Source of the DNA: Blastopirellula marina DSM 3645
GTDB taxonomy: Bacteria > Planctomycetota > Planctomycetia > Pirellulales > Pirellulaceae
Assembly (NCBI RefSeq): GCF_000153105.1
Contig: NZ_CH672377.1
Coordinates: forward strand, 407,274 to 459,500
Direction: 5' to 3'
DNA length: 52,227 bases
Each line of letters begins with the position of its first letter. Within the stretch, counting starts at the first letter, position 1. The notes beneath the pieces were generated by a model, which was not told the DNA's origin, did no database searches, and worked only from the letters and a program-made list of their open reading frames with translations. Positions 43,530-52,227 of this stretch are shown piece by piece. Made by a program: the position numbers and the translations under genes.

Positions 43530-43867
43530 TTCAACAACTCTTCAGTAACAGATGAAAAACAATTGCCTTGAACAGAGCGTCGAAGCACGGTTGGCGGTTG
43601 CTTGGGCGTCGACGCAGGCAATAGAACAAAGCCGATTGCCGTCGCACAATCGTTCTTCACGCAGACTGACGACAATTCATCGAAACCTAATAAAACGCCG
43701 TGCAAATGCGGAACTTGTTGGGGGCTTTGGCGCAGTGAAGAGAAGGGTTTCTGCGCGAAAGCGCGAGCACGCCGGCGCCGTGGTCACGACTTCAAGATCA
43801 TCGCTGCAGTCAGAGAATTAGCAGCGGCGCAGCCCACGAAAATCCAACCACCCAATGGCGCCGGTCA
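43530..43867. other. Upstream region of pilin module 1
   Basis: About 340 bp without a supported gene. It should contain the promoter of the minus-strand module; I cannot single one out. A 132-codon plus-strand frame crossing it runs into repeat B2 and has no ribosome-binding site. Confidence 0.35.
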
Positions 43868-44039
43868 CGTAGAGTGGGTGGAGCGAAACCGCGATCGATT
43901 CCACCATCATCCAACGACAAGAGCGGGTTGCGCAACCAACCGCACCCCGATGGCGAATCCGACGCAGTCGGTGGGTTGCGCAAGCGGCGGCGTCGCTTGA
44001 GATTGGACACCGCCGTTCGCTTGCCGCACCCACGCTACA
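43868..44039 (+). repeat. Family B palindromic intergenic repeat, copy 2
   Basis: About 172 bp. It starts CGTAGAGTGGGTGGAGCG and ends with GCACCCACGCTAC, an inverted repeat. Internal blocks shared with copy 3 include GATCGATT, GGGTT(G/A)CGCAAGCGGCG and GAGATTGGACACCGC. No gene is inside. Confidence 0.85.
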
Positions 44040-46343: not shown

Positions 46344-47789
46344 ATGTCAATCGTCATAAACGAGCCTTCTTTCCAACCAACCAATCCAACGCCATCGAAT
46401 GACGCGACTTCGCCGGAATCGGATGTTGCGGAGAAGCGGCCGGATCGCCGCGACCATTTGCGCTTGGCCGATTCTGATTCCGAAGAGGAGCGGCGTTCGG
46501 GCCCCGAAGAAGAACCTTTAGAGGGGCTGACCACGACCCAATTATTAGCACGGAAAAAACCGCGGGCCTGGTTGTTGCCGGGGATGCTGGCTCGGCATGA
46601 AGCGGCGGTGATTTTGGGGCCCCGTAAAAGCATGAAGACCTCGCTGGCGGTCGATCTGTGCGGCGCGCTCGCGAGCGGCGGCAAGTTTTTGGGCCAATTC
46701 GCGGCCGAGCGGGCCTTTCGCGTCGGCTTTGTCGGCGGCGAAGGCGCCGAGCCGGTGGTGACCGACCTGGCGCCGCGCTGGAGCGCAGCGGCGGGTGTCG
46801 ACTTGTCGACGCTGGATCGGCTGGTCTGGGGGCTGAACATGGCGGAGCCGGGCGATCCGGTGAATGTGCGGCGGCTGACCGCTTGGATCGAGCGACACCA
46901 GTTGGAAGTGGTGCTGATCGACGCGGCCGATTTCTCGACCGCGACGCCGCGGGCCCAGACCCGGCAGCTGCGCGAGCTGGTGCGGTGCTGTTTGGAAGCC
47001 GGCGCGACGCCGATTCTCTGTTGTCCAACGCGCAAAGAGTCGCCGCCGCGGGCCTTAACCGCCGCCGATCTCGCCAGCGCCGCCTGTACGGCTGTCGCGC
47101 GGCAATGGCTGCTAGTCAATCGCCGCCAAGCGTTTGAGCCGGGGAGCGGGCGACACCAGTTGTGGTTGACGCTGGGGGGCGGCGCCGGGCAAAGCAGCCT
47201 GTGGGGAGTCGACATTGATGAAGGAGCAGCTGGTCGCAAGTGGGAAGTACAGTTGCGCGACGTGCCGGCCATCGCAGAAGAAACGGCCCAGTTGGCCGCC
47301 AAGGCGCAAGCCGATCACTTGCGGTGGAAACTGCGGGGCGTGATGTCGCAGATCGACCCGGCTCAGGCGACCAAGCTGAAGATCCGCGAGCAAAGCGGGA
47401 TGAGCGGCGCCAAGTTCGGCCTGACTTGGCAACGTCTGGTCGACGCCGGCGAAATCCGACTCGCTTCCAGCAGTGATCCCTCCATGCGCCAGTGGGAGCC
47501 CCGTTATCGCCTGGTCGATCTGGCCGAATTAAGCGATGACGATGCGGCCGATTTCGACCCGCTCGACGAAATCTTCCCCACCTTCACCACCGCCGAACTA
47601 TTGGCCTACGCCGAAAAAACTGCGCCGCCGAGTCCATTCCAGCAGGCCGACCAGCCGAGTCGTCCTGCGAGCGAAGCCGAGAAAATTTCACGCGCGAGTC
47701 CACTCGAAAAAAAGTCGCCGCCGAGTCCACTCCACGCTGCCCGCAAGTCGCGGAAGCGCCGGGCGAAGGTGCGAAAAAGGAGAAGGTGA
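46344..47789 (+). CDS. RepA-like AAA ATPase with basic C-terminal tail
   Basis: 481 residues from the ATG at 46344, preceded by GGGGGA; upstream in-frame starts lack support. Residues 1-60 are acidic and disordered. Residues ~65-300 form a RecA-type ATPase of the RepA/AAA_25 kind: Walker A GPRKSMKTS (Gly92-Ser100), a PRFVGGEGAEP-like sensor strand (FRVGFVGGEGAEPV) and Walker B VEVVLIDAADF. Residues ~340-400 look like a winged-helix region (IREQSGMSGAKFGLTWQRLVDAGEI). The C-terminus repeats PPSP/ASPL units and ends in a strongly basic tail (RKSRKRRAKVRKRRR), suited to nucleic acid binding. RepA-like ATPases are hexameric helicases of plasmids or mobile elements, but this one lacks such neighbours. 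Confidence 0.8.
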   Translation: MSIVINEPSFQPTNPTPSNDATSPESDVAEKRPDRRDHLRLADSDSEEERRSGPEEEPLEGLTTTQLLARKKPRAWLLPGMLARHEAAVILGPRKSMKTSLAVDLCGALASGGKFLGQFAAERAFRVGFVGGEGAEPVVTDLAPRWSAAAGVDLSTLDRLVWGLNMAEPGDPVNVRRLTAWIERHQLEVVLIDAADFSTATPRAQTRQLRELVRCCLEAGATPILCCPTRKESPPRALTAADLASAACTAVARQWLLVNRRQAFEPGSGRHQLWLTLGGGAGQSSLWGVDIDEGAAGRKWEVQLRDVPAIAEETAQLAAKAQADHLRWKLRGVMSQIDPAQATKLKIREQSGMSGAKFGLTWQRLVDAGEIRLASSSDPSMRQWEPRYRLVDLAELSDDDAADFDPLDEIFPTFTTAELLAYAEKTAPPSPFQQADQPSRPASEAEKISRASPLEKKSPPSPLHAARKSRKRRAKVRKRRR

Positions 47790-47818
47790 AGCGGCGACGA
47801 TTGTTGCTGCAAAAGTCG

Positions 47819-47991
47819 CGTAGAGGGTGGGTGGAGCAAAACCGCGATCGATTTTACCATCCTCCAATGACAGGACCGGTTTGCGCAAGCCACCGAACCC
47901 AATCGTCGCTCTGACCCAATCCGTGGGTTACGCAAGCGGCGACGTCGCTCGAGATTGGACACCGCAGTTCGCTTGCTGCACCCACGCTACG
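47819..47991 (+). repeat. Family B palindromic intergenic repeat, copy 3
   Basis: 173 bp, direct orientation like copy 2, just after the ATPase stop. The ends CGTAGAGGGTGGGTGG and CACCCACGCTACG are inverted. Internal similarity to copy 2 is high, including GGTTACGCAAGCGGCG and GAGATTGGACACCGC. Confidence 0.85.
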
Positions 47992-48294
47992 TTACTGAAG
48001 TTGCTGGTCACCGATGGACGTTCCGGCGCGAACCCCCTCTCCAAGAGTTCTCTCCTTTCATTGGAAAGCGATTTCGACAAGCCGCCGCGCGGATTCACCA
48101 AAACTTCAAGCCAACGTGAACGGTTTGCGGATTTGGCGATGTCGCGGCGGCGAATCTTGGCAGAGAGCGAAATACCGGCCAAGAAGGGACGATTGTGTGC
48201 CTTTGACCGTGTGACCTACTTGTTCTCTTCACCAATTTCTCGCGGTGACCAACCTTGCGGCGACGCCCCAAGGAAAAGGTTCGACCACGAAAAG
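47992..48294. other. Intergenic region before the tRNA-like element
   Basis: About 300 bp with no supported gene. Short frames on both strands have no ribosome-binding sites. It precedes the putative promoter at 48295. Confidence 0.4.
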
Positions 48295-48324
48295 TTGCTG
48301 TCAAAATCGCAGATGTGTTATGCT
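48295..48324 (+). promoter_or_regulatory. Possible promoter of the tRNA-like/HNH transcript
   Basis: TTGCTG (48295-48300) and TATGCT (48319-48324) are 18 bases apart. Transcription would begin near 48332 and include the tRNA-like structure in the leader of the HNH gene. Moderate match only. Confidence 0.42.
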
Positions 48325-48403
48325 AAGGGCCTGACTTCGCTCCCCTCCTCACCCCAACTGGGGTCGGAATGCAGCCCTACAAAAGTTCCTTGATCGAGCC
48401 CAA

Positions 48404-48473
48404 ACGACTGTAGCTCAACCAGGCAGAGCGCCCGTAGAAGCGGTTAGAAATCGGTTCGAACCCGATCAGTCGT
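48404..48473 (+). ncRNA. tRNA-like structure with truncated anticodon arm, just upstream of an HNH gene
   Basis: Seven-bp acceptor stem ACGACTG (48404-48410) / CAGTCGT (48467-48473), perfect. TA, then D-arm GCTC-AACCAGGCA-GAGC (48413-48429) with the conserved GG in the loop. T-arm ATCGG-TTCGAAC-CCGAT (48450-48466), perfect with the canonical TTCGA loop. The 20 bases between D and T arms (48430-48449) are too few for a normal anticodon arm plus variable loop; the best fold is a 3-bp stem CCG/CGG closing TAGAAG. No CCA is encoded. A tRNA mimic or degenerate tRNA is suggested. The element ends 28 bases before the HNH start codon. Confidence 0.75.
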
Positions 48474-48501
48474 CATCGACAATAACCTCAGGGAGAGATG
48501 G

Positions 48502-49095
48502 ATGTCGGCAATCCTCGAGCGCCCAACGCTCGTCCTCAATCGAAACTGGCAACCCGTAGGCGTCGCCTCGGTGGCCCGCTCGTTGACCAAGGTCTTCAGC
48601 GGTACGGCGCGGATCGTCGATCCGCTCAGCTACCAACTGTACGACTGGGAAGATTGGTCGCAACTTGTCCCGAACAAGGACGAGCCGTTCATCTCGTCGC
48701 AACGGTTGAAGATTCGCGTTCCGGAAGTGGTCACGCTGGTCAACTACGATCGCGTCCCGCGTAACACGGTGACGTTCAGCCGTCGTAACGTGTTCAAGCG
48801 CGACAACTACACGTGCCAATATTGCGGTTCGCGACCAGGAAGCGAAAGCTTGACGATCGACCACGTCCTGCCGCGTGCCCAAGGGGGCGAGTCGAGCTGG
48901 GAGAACTGCGTGCTGGCGTGCGTCGAATGCAATCATTCGAAAGCGAACCGTACGCCGCTGCAAGCACGAATGCCGTTGCACTCGATCCCGGTCCGCCCCC
49001 GCTGGTCGCCGGTTTACGCCGCACGCCGCGTACGGATCGAGTCGTGGGCCAAGTTCATCAGCGAAGCCTACTGGGATACCGAACTGGGCGCCTAG
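48502..49095 (+). CDS. HNH endonuclease preceded by a tRNA-like leader
   Basis: 197 residues from the ATG at 48502; AGGGAGA sits about 6 bases before. Residues 1-95 form a conserved N-terminal domain (LVLNRNWQPVGVASVARSLTKVFSGTARIVD, DWEDWSQL). The HNH/zinc region spans 100-150: Cys105-Cys108 (CQYCG), Asp120-His121 (IDHVLPRAQGG), Asn135, Cys140-Cys143 (CVECN) and His145, a complete beta-beta-alpha metal nuclease. The C-terminal stretch has VRPRWSPVYAARRVRIESW. This is the widespread stand-alone HNH family, not linked here to an intron, phage or CRISPR. A tRNA-shaped element lies directly upstream. The nuclease fold is sure; the cellular role is unknown. Confidence 0.92.
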   Translation: MSAILERPTLVLNRNWQPVGVASVARSLTKVFSGTARIVDPLSYQLYDWEDWSQLVPNKDEPFISSQRLKIRVPEVVTLVNYDRVPRNTVTFSRRNVFKRDNYTCQYCGSRPGSESLTIDHVLPRAQGGESSWENCVLACVECNHSKANRTPLQARMPLHSIPVRPRWSPVYAARRVRIESWAKFISEAYWDTELGA

Positions 49096-49122
49096 ACGCT
49101 GCTGGTAATATGAAAAACGCAA

Positions 49123-49157
49123 ACAGCCGTCCGAGTCACTCGGACGGCTGTGTTTTT
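49123..49157. terminator. Bidirectional terminator between HNH and caspase-like genes
   Basis: ACAGCCGTCCGAGT / ACTCGGACGGCTGT is a perfect 14-bp stem with a one-base loop. A T-run (GTTTTT) follows on the plus strand, and AAAAACGC precedes the stem, giving T-rich sequence on the minus strand. It serves both convergent genes. Confidence 0.93.
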
Positions 49158-49184
49158 AGCGAACGACGAATCTTTGGCGCCAGG

Positions 49185-51526: not shown

Positions 51527-52075
51527 TTATTCCAAAATACTTAAGTAAGCAGGGGGAACTTCGTCCGTCAGCCAAACTTGGTTGGGCGTCACGTAAAACG
51601 AATAACCGTCGGCATGCATTCGTCCCGCCGCGATTTGCAGCAACACCGGCTTGCCCCGTCGTTGTCCGACGGCGCTGGCCGTTTGTCGATCGTGATGCAG
51701 GTGAACGTGATGACGCTTCATTTTTTTCAGCCCTGTCTCCAAAATGATCGCGACCGATTGCTCCGGCGTTCCATGCAACAGATACTCAGGCGGCGCGGCA
51801 GCTTCGTAGCCCAGCTCCACTTCAATCGAATGCCCTTGCACCGCGCGGATGCGCAGCCCGTCTGAGGAGAACATGAACCGCTGCTTGTCATTTCGCGTCA
51901 CGACTTCTTGCAGCTGCGCTAACGTCAGCGGCCGACTTTCGCGCCTGATCGCGGCGAGCAACGTGGCCACTTCGACCCAACCCTGCTCATCGAGTTCGAT
52001 CCCAATTTTATCGGGCTGATGCCGCAGCACCAAGCTAAGAAATTTGCTCGTCTTCGCGAGCTGTTTATCATCCAT
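51527..52075 (-). CDS. kptA: RNA 2'-phosphotransferase Tpt1/KptA
   Basis: 182 residues from the ATG at 52075; the frame is open for 38 more codons, but that upstream stretch overlaps a family A repeat. The N-terminal winged helix (SKFLSLVLRHQPDKIGIELDEQGWVEV) contains the catalytic Arg18-His19. RFMFSSDGLRIRAVQGHS supplies the next arginine, and the ADP-ribosyltransferase-like half has LLHGT, VHLHHD and GRMHADGYSFYVTPNQVWL. The enzyme removes an RNA 2'-phosphate using NAD+, which in eukaryotes completes tRNA splicing. Its purpose in bacteria is unclear. It is first in a two-gene operon with a MOSC protein. Confidence 0.93.
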   Translation of the reverse strand: MDDKQLAKTSKFLSLVLRHQPDKIGIELDEQGWVEVATLLAAIRRESRPLTLAQLQEVVTRNDKQRFMFSSDGLRIRAVQGHSIEVELGYEAAAPPEYLLHGTPEQSVAIILETGLKKMKRHHVHLHHDRQTASAVGQRRGKPVLLQIAAGRMHADGYSFYVTPNQVWLTDEVPPAYLSILE

Positions 52076-52104
52076 CGCTTTCACGGTATCTCTGGTTACC
52101 GTTT

Positions 52105-52227
52105 CTATTTTGAAAGTTTGAAGTTGCGTTATTTGGCATTCACGAAGAATAGAACACGGACGCCACGGATAAATCACGGCCAGAATCAACCGAACATCGC
52201 CACACTAGCCCGCTGCGCAAGCGAGGG
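52105..52227. repeat. Family A repeat, copy A4, cut by the window edge
   Basis: TTTGAAGTTGCG near 52117-52128 and the shared block CAGAATCAACCG (also in copy A1 at 13200-13211) lead to CACACTAGCCCGCTGCGCAAGCGAGGG at the edge. The right arm lies outside the window. The left end overlaps the upstream region of kptA. Confidence 0.65.

Follow-up and report, generated by a model that had tools for sequence, protein, structure and literature searches.

What is a tRNA-shaped sequence without an anticodon doing directly in front of an HNH endonuclease gene? An earlier note had described such a leader, with a shrunken anticodon arm, in the window (the whole stretch of DNA analysed here, 52,227 nucleotides), and this description was confirmed by gene calling, model matching and folding. 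ARAGORN called a single tRNA-type gene in the 52-kb window, the plus-strand element at 48404-48474, as 'tRNA-???' with a 2-nt anticodon 'ga', and cmscan of positions 48300-48530 gave the element 42.1 bits (E = 5.4e-8) with the Rfam tRNA model RF00005, whose gathering score is 29. It went unreported in a gathering-mode Rfam scan of the whole 52 kb with fast filters, and its place was absent from the output of a whole-genome RF00005 search. The minimum-energy fold of the element is a four-arm cloverleaf with a 7-bp acceptor stem (48404-48410/48467-48473), a D stem (48413-48416/48426-48429) whose loop contains GG, and a T arm (48450-48466), so the acceptor, D and T arms of the RF00005 cloverleaf are all present, and the 5-bp anticodon stem, 7-nt loop and anticodon of that model are all missing. 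A 4-bp stem (48432-48435/48440-48443) with a 4-nt loop replaces them, and the distance between the D and T arms is 20 nt, just as the note had counted, into which no arm with a 5-bp stem and a 7-nt loop fits. The folding energy was unexceptional (z = -1.63; 12 of 200 shuffles were equally good). A scorer for the acceptor, D and T arms gave the element 21.5, compared with a best control value of 19.0 among 330 stretches of 200 nt, which were drawn from inside orthologous HNH genes and are hence non-independent.

The absence of an encoded CCA, also pointed out in the note, is real but no peculiarity: none of the 28 other tRNA genes checked in the window's genome (G000) encodes CCA, so its absence from the element means nothing. 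A C follows the discriminator base in 27 of the 28 housekeeping tRNA genes of this genome, and the element lacks this C. In 22 of the 28 (L198-L225) the following bases are CTT, which also stands there in 10 of 14, 12 of 19 and 8 of 10 array tRNAs (L228, L229 and L230, respectively); CTT is a conserved 3' trailer of tRNA genes in place of encoded CCA. The features of the locus are collected in Table 1.

Table 1. Features of the HNH locus, in window coordinates.
Feature	Positions	Strand	Basis and remarks
Conserved HNH unit (leader, tRNA-like element, HNH, terminator-like hairpin)	48275..49163	+	blastn blocks against congeners
Putative promoter (TTGCTG, 18-nt spacer, extended -10 TGTTATGCT)	48295..48324	+	read from sequence
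tRNA-like element without anticodon	48404..48474	+	ARAGORN, RF00005, RNA fold, covariation; position 73 is C at 48474
Shrunken arm replacing the anticodon arm (CCGU-AGAA-GCGG)	48432..48443	+	RNA fold; region varies among sub-lineages
27-nt spacer with Shine-Dalgarno AGGGAG (48490-48495)	48475..48501	+	read from sequence
HNH endonuclease of tRNA-array type, 197 aa	48502..49095	+	PF01844 1.3e-14, PF14279 1.4e-13; orthologues in tRNA arrays
Terminator-like hairpin closing the HNH unit	49123..49151	both	13-pair stem, T-rich tails on either strand

The element is not a relic confined to one strain. It precedes the HNH gene by 25-27 nt at all 14 loci (13 of them distinct) of the window's genus and its sister group, namely four genomes of the window's genus and ten sister-group places (nine genomes of one genus and the MAG L036), where L036 and L246 are identical and possibly one organism, and L001-L005 are the same places as L006-L009. 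HNH identity across the 14 loci is 82-100%. Read by eye, the anticodon region forms a stem of about 4 bp with a loop of 3-4 nt in the window's genus and longer hairpins, mostly of 6-9 bp with loops of 4-12 nt, in the sister group, and an anticodon was seen by eye in none of the 14 elements; a loose automatic rule fitted a chance 5+7 arm in L009, L014, L036, L247 and L023, where by eye there is no anticodon. The element of congener G001 (L009 1349-1473) carries about 54 extra bases in this arm, in which the small hairpin occurs for a second time (GTCCGTTTGACGG / GTCCGTTTTGACGG), and this insert has no matching place elsewhere among the loci examined. The trailer after position 73 reads ATCG in the window's genus and TT in the sister group. 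At L037 and L248, with 80% HNH identity and similar upstream regions, the element has shrunk to an acceptor-like hairpin. A quick HNH tree (FastTree, 112 rows) united the 12 element-bearing rows and L037 in a 13-row clade (support 98), with L037 grouping with the sister group (support 84), so its reduction to a hairpin looks secondary; the next larger clade noted (43 rows, support 95) includes array loci as well as loci with a lone tRNA-His. In the window and in L235, the one sister-group locus read, HNH has a convergently oriented MOSC gene nearby, and the locus thus looks vertically inherited.

That the element still works as a tRNA, either with its odd anticodon arm or after restoration by splicing, is scarcely credible. 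The insert of about 54 bases in G001 and the presence of the RNA-repair gene KptA in the window could be read in its favour, but the 20 nt between the D and T arms in the window leave nothing to splice out, the sister-group hairpins lack, by eye, a normal 7-nt anticodon loop, and a normal tRNA-His(GTG) is present.

If decoding has been lost, the question becomes whether the remaining shape is maintained. We aligned the cores of 12 rows from the 14 loci, omitting L007 (core identical to that of L006) and L246 (identical to L036); L006 and L008 count once, leaving 11 distinct cores. Across these, the acceptor stem plus -1:73 was 97.7% paired, and six of the eight pairs of this end stem had changed on both sides. 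None of 500 shuffles, which do not keep relatedness, reached six doubly changed pairs or the covariation score, and slid controls gave at most two such pairs; the number of further pair types was ordinary (132 of 500 shuffles were as high). The T and D stems are nearly invariant, the covariation coming from the end stem alone, and mismatches occur at the outer pair of the T stem in 9 of 11 rows and at that of the D stem in 5. The earlier argument that conserved stems speak against simple decay, with compensating changes in the acceptor and T stems as its check, is upheld for the end stem, with its six doubly changed pairs; the T and D stems barely vary. Identity between the two groups, taken from 12 of the 14 loci (3 x 9 = 27 pairs), was at the shuffled level in the 120 nt upstream (0.48 vs. 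0.49), the anticodon region (0.42 vs. 0.42) and the spacer (0.50 vs. 0.47), whereas the 37-nt core, consisting of the acceptor stem, the 5' D strand and the T arm, reached 0.70 against a shuffled value of 0.50. The saturation of the flanks, the preservation of the core and the doubly changed pairs argue for selection on a non-decoding tRNA shape rather than for plain decay. The element has thus, very probably, lost the anticodon arm and with it decoding, but its tRNA-shaped core has been kept by selection.

A functionless, decaying tRNA pseudogene is accordingly quite improbable, even though several observations would suit it. The tRNA array of the window's genome is itself decaying, with odd or broken tRNAs; the elements have lost their anticodon and 3' trailer; L037 and L248 retain just a hairpin, and L049, L028 and L097 hold damaged remnants at the same place. 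Degenerate tRNA clusters, whose partially degraded members are thought to have been acquired, are described in many Planctomycetes in a report whose main text makes no mention of HNH (PMC4807772). In contrast to the degraded members of such clusters, the window's element appears to be kept by selection, and a pseudogene old enough to lie amid saturated flanks should lack stems, not retain a core with six doubly changed pairs.

The origin of the element was sought in the surroundings of related HNH genes. Orthologues with about 56-69% identity sit inside tRNA arrays in many other Planctomycetes, and in the clearest of these arrays a tRNA-His ends about 20-30 nt before HNH and a tRNA-Trp begins about 630 nt past the HNH start. 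The window's own HNH gene is not embedded among tRNA genes, the element standing alone beside it in the ARAGORN output. Our survey covered 80 of 583 HNH relatives, a viral set of 80 of 332 and a further set of 30 loci, with the HNH places of G231, G021, G194, G174, G191, G328, G197, G011 and G190 left out, and 157 loci were retained from 160 distinct ones after removing 3 with <130 nt upstream. A tRNA-His lies ≤160 nt upstream of HNH at 41 of the 157 loci (24 of the 41 have at least three tRNAs around), another tRNA lies upstream at 9, an anticodon-less tRNA shape at 16 (13 of the two groups plus L023, L088 and L097), and nothing was detected within 160 nt upstream at 91. At 13 of the 157 loci a lone tRNA-His stands before HNH, the only tRNA detected from -700 to +1500. 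These ARAGORN counts are lower bounds for presence and upper bounds for absence, since our own scanner found a few extra tRNAs; the tRNA-His that it found at L083 was counted as 'other tRNA' and that at L041 as none, and some loci have <700 nt upstream. The expectation that orthologous HNH genes would carry the element upstream was borne out throughout the two groups and failed at the 91 loci where no tRNA was detected. Since the element is absent from most HNH orthologues, it is no obligatory partner of the protein. Among the loci examined, the anticodon-less form occurs in the two sister groups and in three scattered cases only.

Arrays with this HNH gene extend beyond chromosomes of Planctomycetes. 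On viral contigs, at least one tRNA lies near HNH at 15 of 80 loci (80 of 332 relatives), including L265, whose HNH identity is 64% and whose 32 tRNAs are the largest number among the matches listed, and on a Nostoc plasmid 24 tRNA genes come after an HNH gene with 37% identity. Among the protein genes of mycobacterial tRNA arrays, that of an endonuclease, often of HNH type, is reported to be the most widespread, and the arrays of M. avium have one HNH in conserved form, according to the accounts consulted (PMC5966550, PMC12803027). The tRNA array units with HNH of Mycobacterium chromosomes, plasmids and phages and of Nostoc/Anabaena plasmids resemble the planctomycete arrays in which orthologues of the window's HNH often sit between tRNA-His and tRNA-Trp; they differ in that the HNH gene of the window's genus stands apart from the array, accompanied by one non-decoding tRNA-derived element.

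The pair G-1:C73 is the hallmark of tRNA-His and its main histidine mark. Both bases are present in all 10 sister-group elements, and the pair is found in none of the four of the window's genus, which have A-1 with C73 in three cases and A-1 with T73 in L009. Together with tRNA-His as the usual neighbour of HNH elsewhere, the G-1:C73 of the sister group suggests that the element descended from a tRNA-His. It is probable that the element is a former array tRNA-His that was kept with HNH when the gene parted from its array in the ancestor of the two groups. One trait sets it apart from its presumed forebears: of the tRNA-His genes adjacent to HNH, 40 of 41 have a C after position 73, vs. 0 of 14 elements. 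The candidate explanation that the element is the sole tRNA-His of its genome was rejected by a tRNA-His(GTG) of housekeeping type at G000:C2:118486-118559 (L201), whose presence left decoding by the element free to be lost.

Array remains with odd or broken tRNAs occur in the window's genome at C1:1833837-1835210 and C2:3329955. The surrounding stretches (L192, G000:C1:1832000-1837500; L193, G000:C2:3329500-3330500) hold remains of a divergent array, with odd anticodons (e.g., ATG read as His) and one broken member. The anticodon ATG instead of GTG was also observed in a lone tRNA-His before HNH at L363 (G229:C1:431000-432950). An array-type tRNA-His in each of the congeners G001 and G002 is directly followed by an RNA ligase gene (L228 9275-10166 and L230 3994-4886; the PF09414 domain was searched in G002), with Ro60 (TROVE/vWA) nearby, the tRNA-His there adjoining an RNA-repair gene instead of HNH.

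Damage to the HNH neighbour is also seen in independent cases. L088 and L023, with 18 and 5 tRNAs, each have a tRNA-His-like gene in which an insert has destroyed the anticodon and the acceptor stem is perfect; L097 is a more broken version, and L049 and L028 show plain damage at the same place. A fate peculiar to the HNH neighbour was not established, since 17 of 472 other tRNA-shaped array hits also lack a 5+7 arm, a count obtained from distinct array-locus hits with a relaxed, loose loop rule and including some scanner artefacts; inserts in anticodon arms thus occur at other array positions too, and the cases beside HNH are no proof of a special fate. A short hairpin insert, GGGCACCGAC-(few bases)-GTTGGTC, recurs in planctomycete tRNA arrays (L021, L023, L052, L064, L070, L071, L101 and L265), several times within tRNA genes and in either orientation, and has the look of a miniature mobile element that inhabits such arrays.

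The surroundings of the element define a compact unit. The blastn blocks against G001 (L234) and G002 (L238) both begin at 48275 and run through HNH, and the preceding 8.5 kb of the window is unmatched in these two congeners; G003 (L237) is similar to the window further upstream of 48275 as well. The right edge is not a break, as genes downstream are also common to congeners. The plausible promoter mentioned in the earlier note held up in part: its extended -10 TGtTATGCT (hexamer 48319-48324) is shared with L037/L248, whose HNH loci are 80% identical, but it is a weak match, and a consensus sigma-70 scan found no promoter there. The HNH gene opens with an in-frame ATG at 48502, 27 nt past the end of the element, and GGGAGA occurs in the spacer of all 14 element-bearing loci. 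With a spacer of 25-27 nt and little room for a promoter in it, the unprocessed HNH mRNA should include the element. The lowest-energy fold of 48330-48515 suggested that the 5' leader masks the ribosome-binding site, an idea rejected because leader/RBS duplex energies were non-significant at all 14 loci (17 to 184 of 200 shuffled leaders were as good).

Several further observations concern these flanks. In G002 (L008 1341-1416), a long inverted repeat 3' of HNH is probably a terminator; its matches to the mir-4672 model, found on both strands, are surely fortuitous. A KptA/Tpt1 RNA 2'-phosphotransferase gene (PF01885, 1.6e-50) lies at 51527-52189 on the minus strand, 2.4 kb downstream of HNH; its neighbours in G001 resemble, by eye, NAD salvage genes, and no KptA is evident beside HNH in the sister-group locus L235. 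Similar intergenic stretches at about 43810-44010 and 47606-47962 of the window appear to be a dispersed repeat of the genome, and their chance ORFs read alike (e.g., 'MGGAKPRSI..PSSND', 'MSNL.RRRRLRNP').

The encoded protein retains four cysteines, H121, N135 and N144 as invariant residues in an alignment of 55 relatives, and its AlphaFold model has a mean pLDDT of 87. The model resembles solved HNH domains of Cas9 and of a Geobacter nicking enzyme over the HNH part only (TM-score by query about 0.3). A guide-RNA reading, in which the protein would be an IscB/Cas9-like HNH, is unsupported, because the matches to IscB (53.9 of 175 bits) and Cas9 (50 of 375) fall far below the cut-off and the likeness in fold is confined to the HNH domain.

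Why would such a shape be kept in a leader? RNase P and RNase Z recognise the tRNA elbow, and RNase Z acts on CCA-less pre-tRNAs, as stated in the source consulted (PMC4810234). Because the end formed by the acceptor, T arm and elbow is kept and the decoding end is lost, a processing signal is the simplest reading, and we tentatively favour, at somewhat less than an even chance, a bacterial 't-element' that acts in cis within the HNH leader as a signal for processing. Under this proposal, transcription would start near 48331 and run through the element, the tRNA-shaped part of the leader would fold, RNase P would cut at 48404 and tRNase Z perhaps after 48474, and the product would be an HNH mRNA with a 27-nt leader carrying the Shine-Dalgarno sequence. 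The lack of the trailer C in all 14 elements implies that 3' processing may differ from that of tRNAs and weakens the proposal; the reduction of L037/L248 to a hairpin and the 91 of 157 HNH loci without a detected upstream tRNA also count against it.

The same loss of the trailer C slightly strengthens both decay and a tRNA-mimic operator, in which the HNH protein or another tRNA-binding protein (a synthetase, Ro60 or an RNA ligase) would bind the leader and control translation. Operators that mimic tRNA are known (thrS). A tRNA shape directly before the start codon would suit such a role, the recurrence of lone tRNA-His/HNH pairs (13 of 157 loci) hints at a link between the two, and a lost 3' trailer agrees with cutting of the leader having ceased at that point. 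We nevertheless regard an operator as rather doubtful: most HNH orthologues are without any such element, the predicted pairing between leader and RBS never exceeded chance, and the loss of G-1:C73 in the window's genus runs contrary to binding by HisRS. Control through synthetase binding, one of the possibilities raised in the earlier note, hence finds little support, since the pair is kept in the sister group and not in the window's genus.

The lone tRNA-His genes before HNH at 13 of 157 loci also underlie the idea that the bacterial t-element is at once a functional partner of its gene: HNH and a tRNA-His-shaped RNA would form a two-part unit, where the RNA, having shed all decoding in this lineage, would be kept only as a scaffold read by the HNH protein or by tRNA-processing enzymes and HNH expression would report tRNA-processing capacity or tRNA damage; this we consider unlikely. 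Very unlikely, in our view, is a free trans-acting small RNA with a tRNA-like body, acting as a decoy for tRNA-cleaving enzymes or as a partner of Ro60 in the manner of a Y RNA, its place upstream of HNH being incidental. Proposals of tRNA arrays as anti-defence devices (PMC12803027, as far as consulted) and the adjacency of Ro60 and RNA ligase to an array-type tRNA-His in G001 and G002 speak for it, but an element without an anticodon is no bait for an anticodon nuclease, and the 27 nt to the HNH start bind it to the mRNA. Nor did 48300-48530 yield a match to Y RNA or YrlA models up to E 10, the Rfam matches at that limit being just RF00005 and two weak snoRNA matches. The bacterial Y RNA (YrlA) tRNA mimics have a tRNA-like body and no decoding role; the element shares this non-decoding body and differs in having no such match.

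With the processing signal as the preferred reading, the closest working analogue is found in plant mitochondria, where t-elements, tRNA-like structures in mRNA UTRs, are proposed RNase P substrates, and where cox1 with its t-element was unaffected by RNase P knock-down, according to the parts of the report consulted (PMC4368725). The window's element is likewise tRNA-shaped and non-decoding and, as the 27-nt spacer suggests, probably part of an mRNA leader; in contrast, the window's element is bacterial, apparently derives from a real tRNA-His gene, and its processing is only proposed. The tRNA-Other of Bacillus cereus, a tRNA relic outside translation and a proposed tRNA-like part of a larger RNA according to its source (PMC3399842), bears a Trp anticodon and lies at the flank of a genomic island, whereas the window's element has no anticodon and leads a protein gene.

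Co-transcription of tRNAs with a protein gene that follows them directly, and their release by tRNA processing, is familiar from thrU-tyrU-glyT-thrT-tufB of E. coli, where the tRNAs are functional, unlike the non-decoding element here. A literature search of titles and abstract beginnings found no described case of a tRNA-derived leader of an array HNH gene. Beyond what the earlier note had proposed, the analysis identified the HNH gene as that of tRNA array units, an ordinary tRNA-His as its usual neighbour elsewhere, and the restricted distribution of the anticodon-less form.

The element looks like a tRNA gene that has passed beyond the loss of decoding, with its shape still under selection, in the leader of a bacterial protein gene, and it offers a natural experiment on the tRNA parts that are important apart from decoding. 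It also illuminates the HNH gene found in tRNA array units, so far unexplained, indicating that the link between HNH and tRNA-His can outlive the array.
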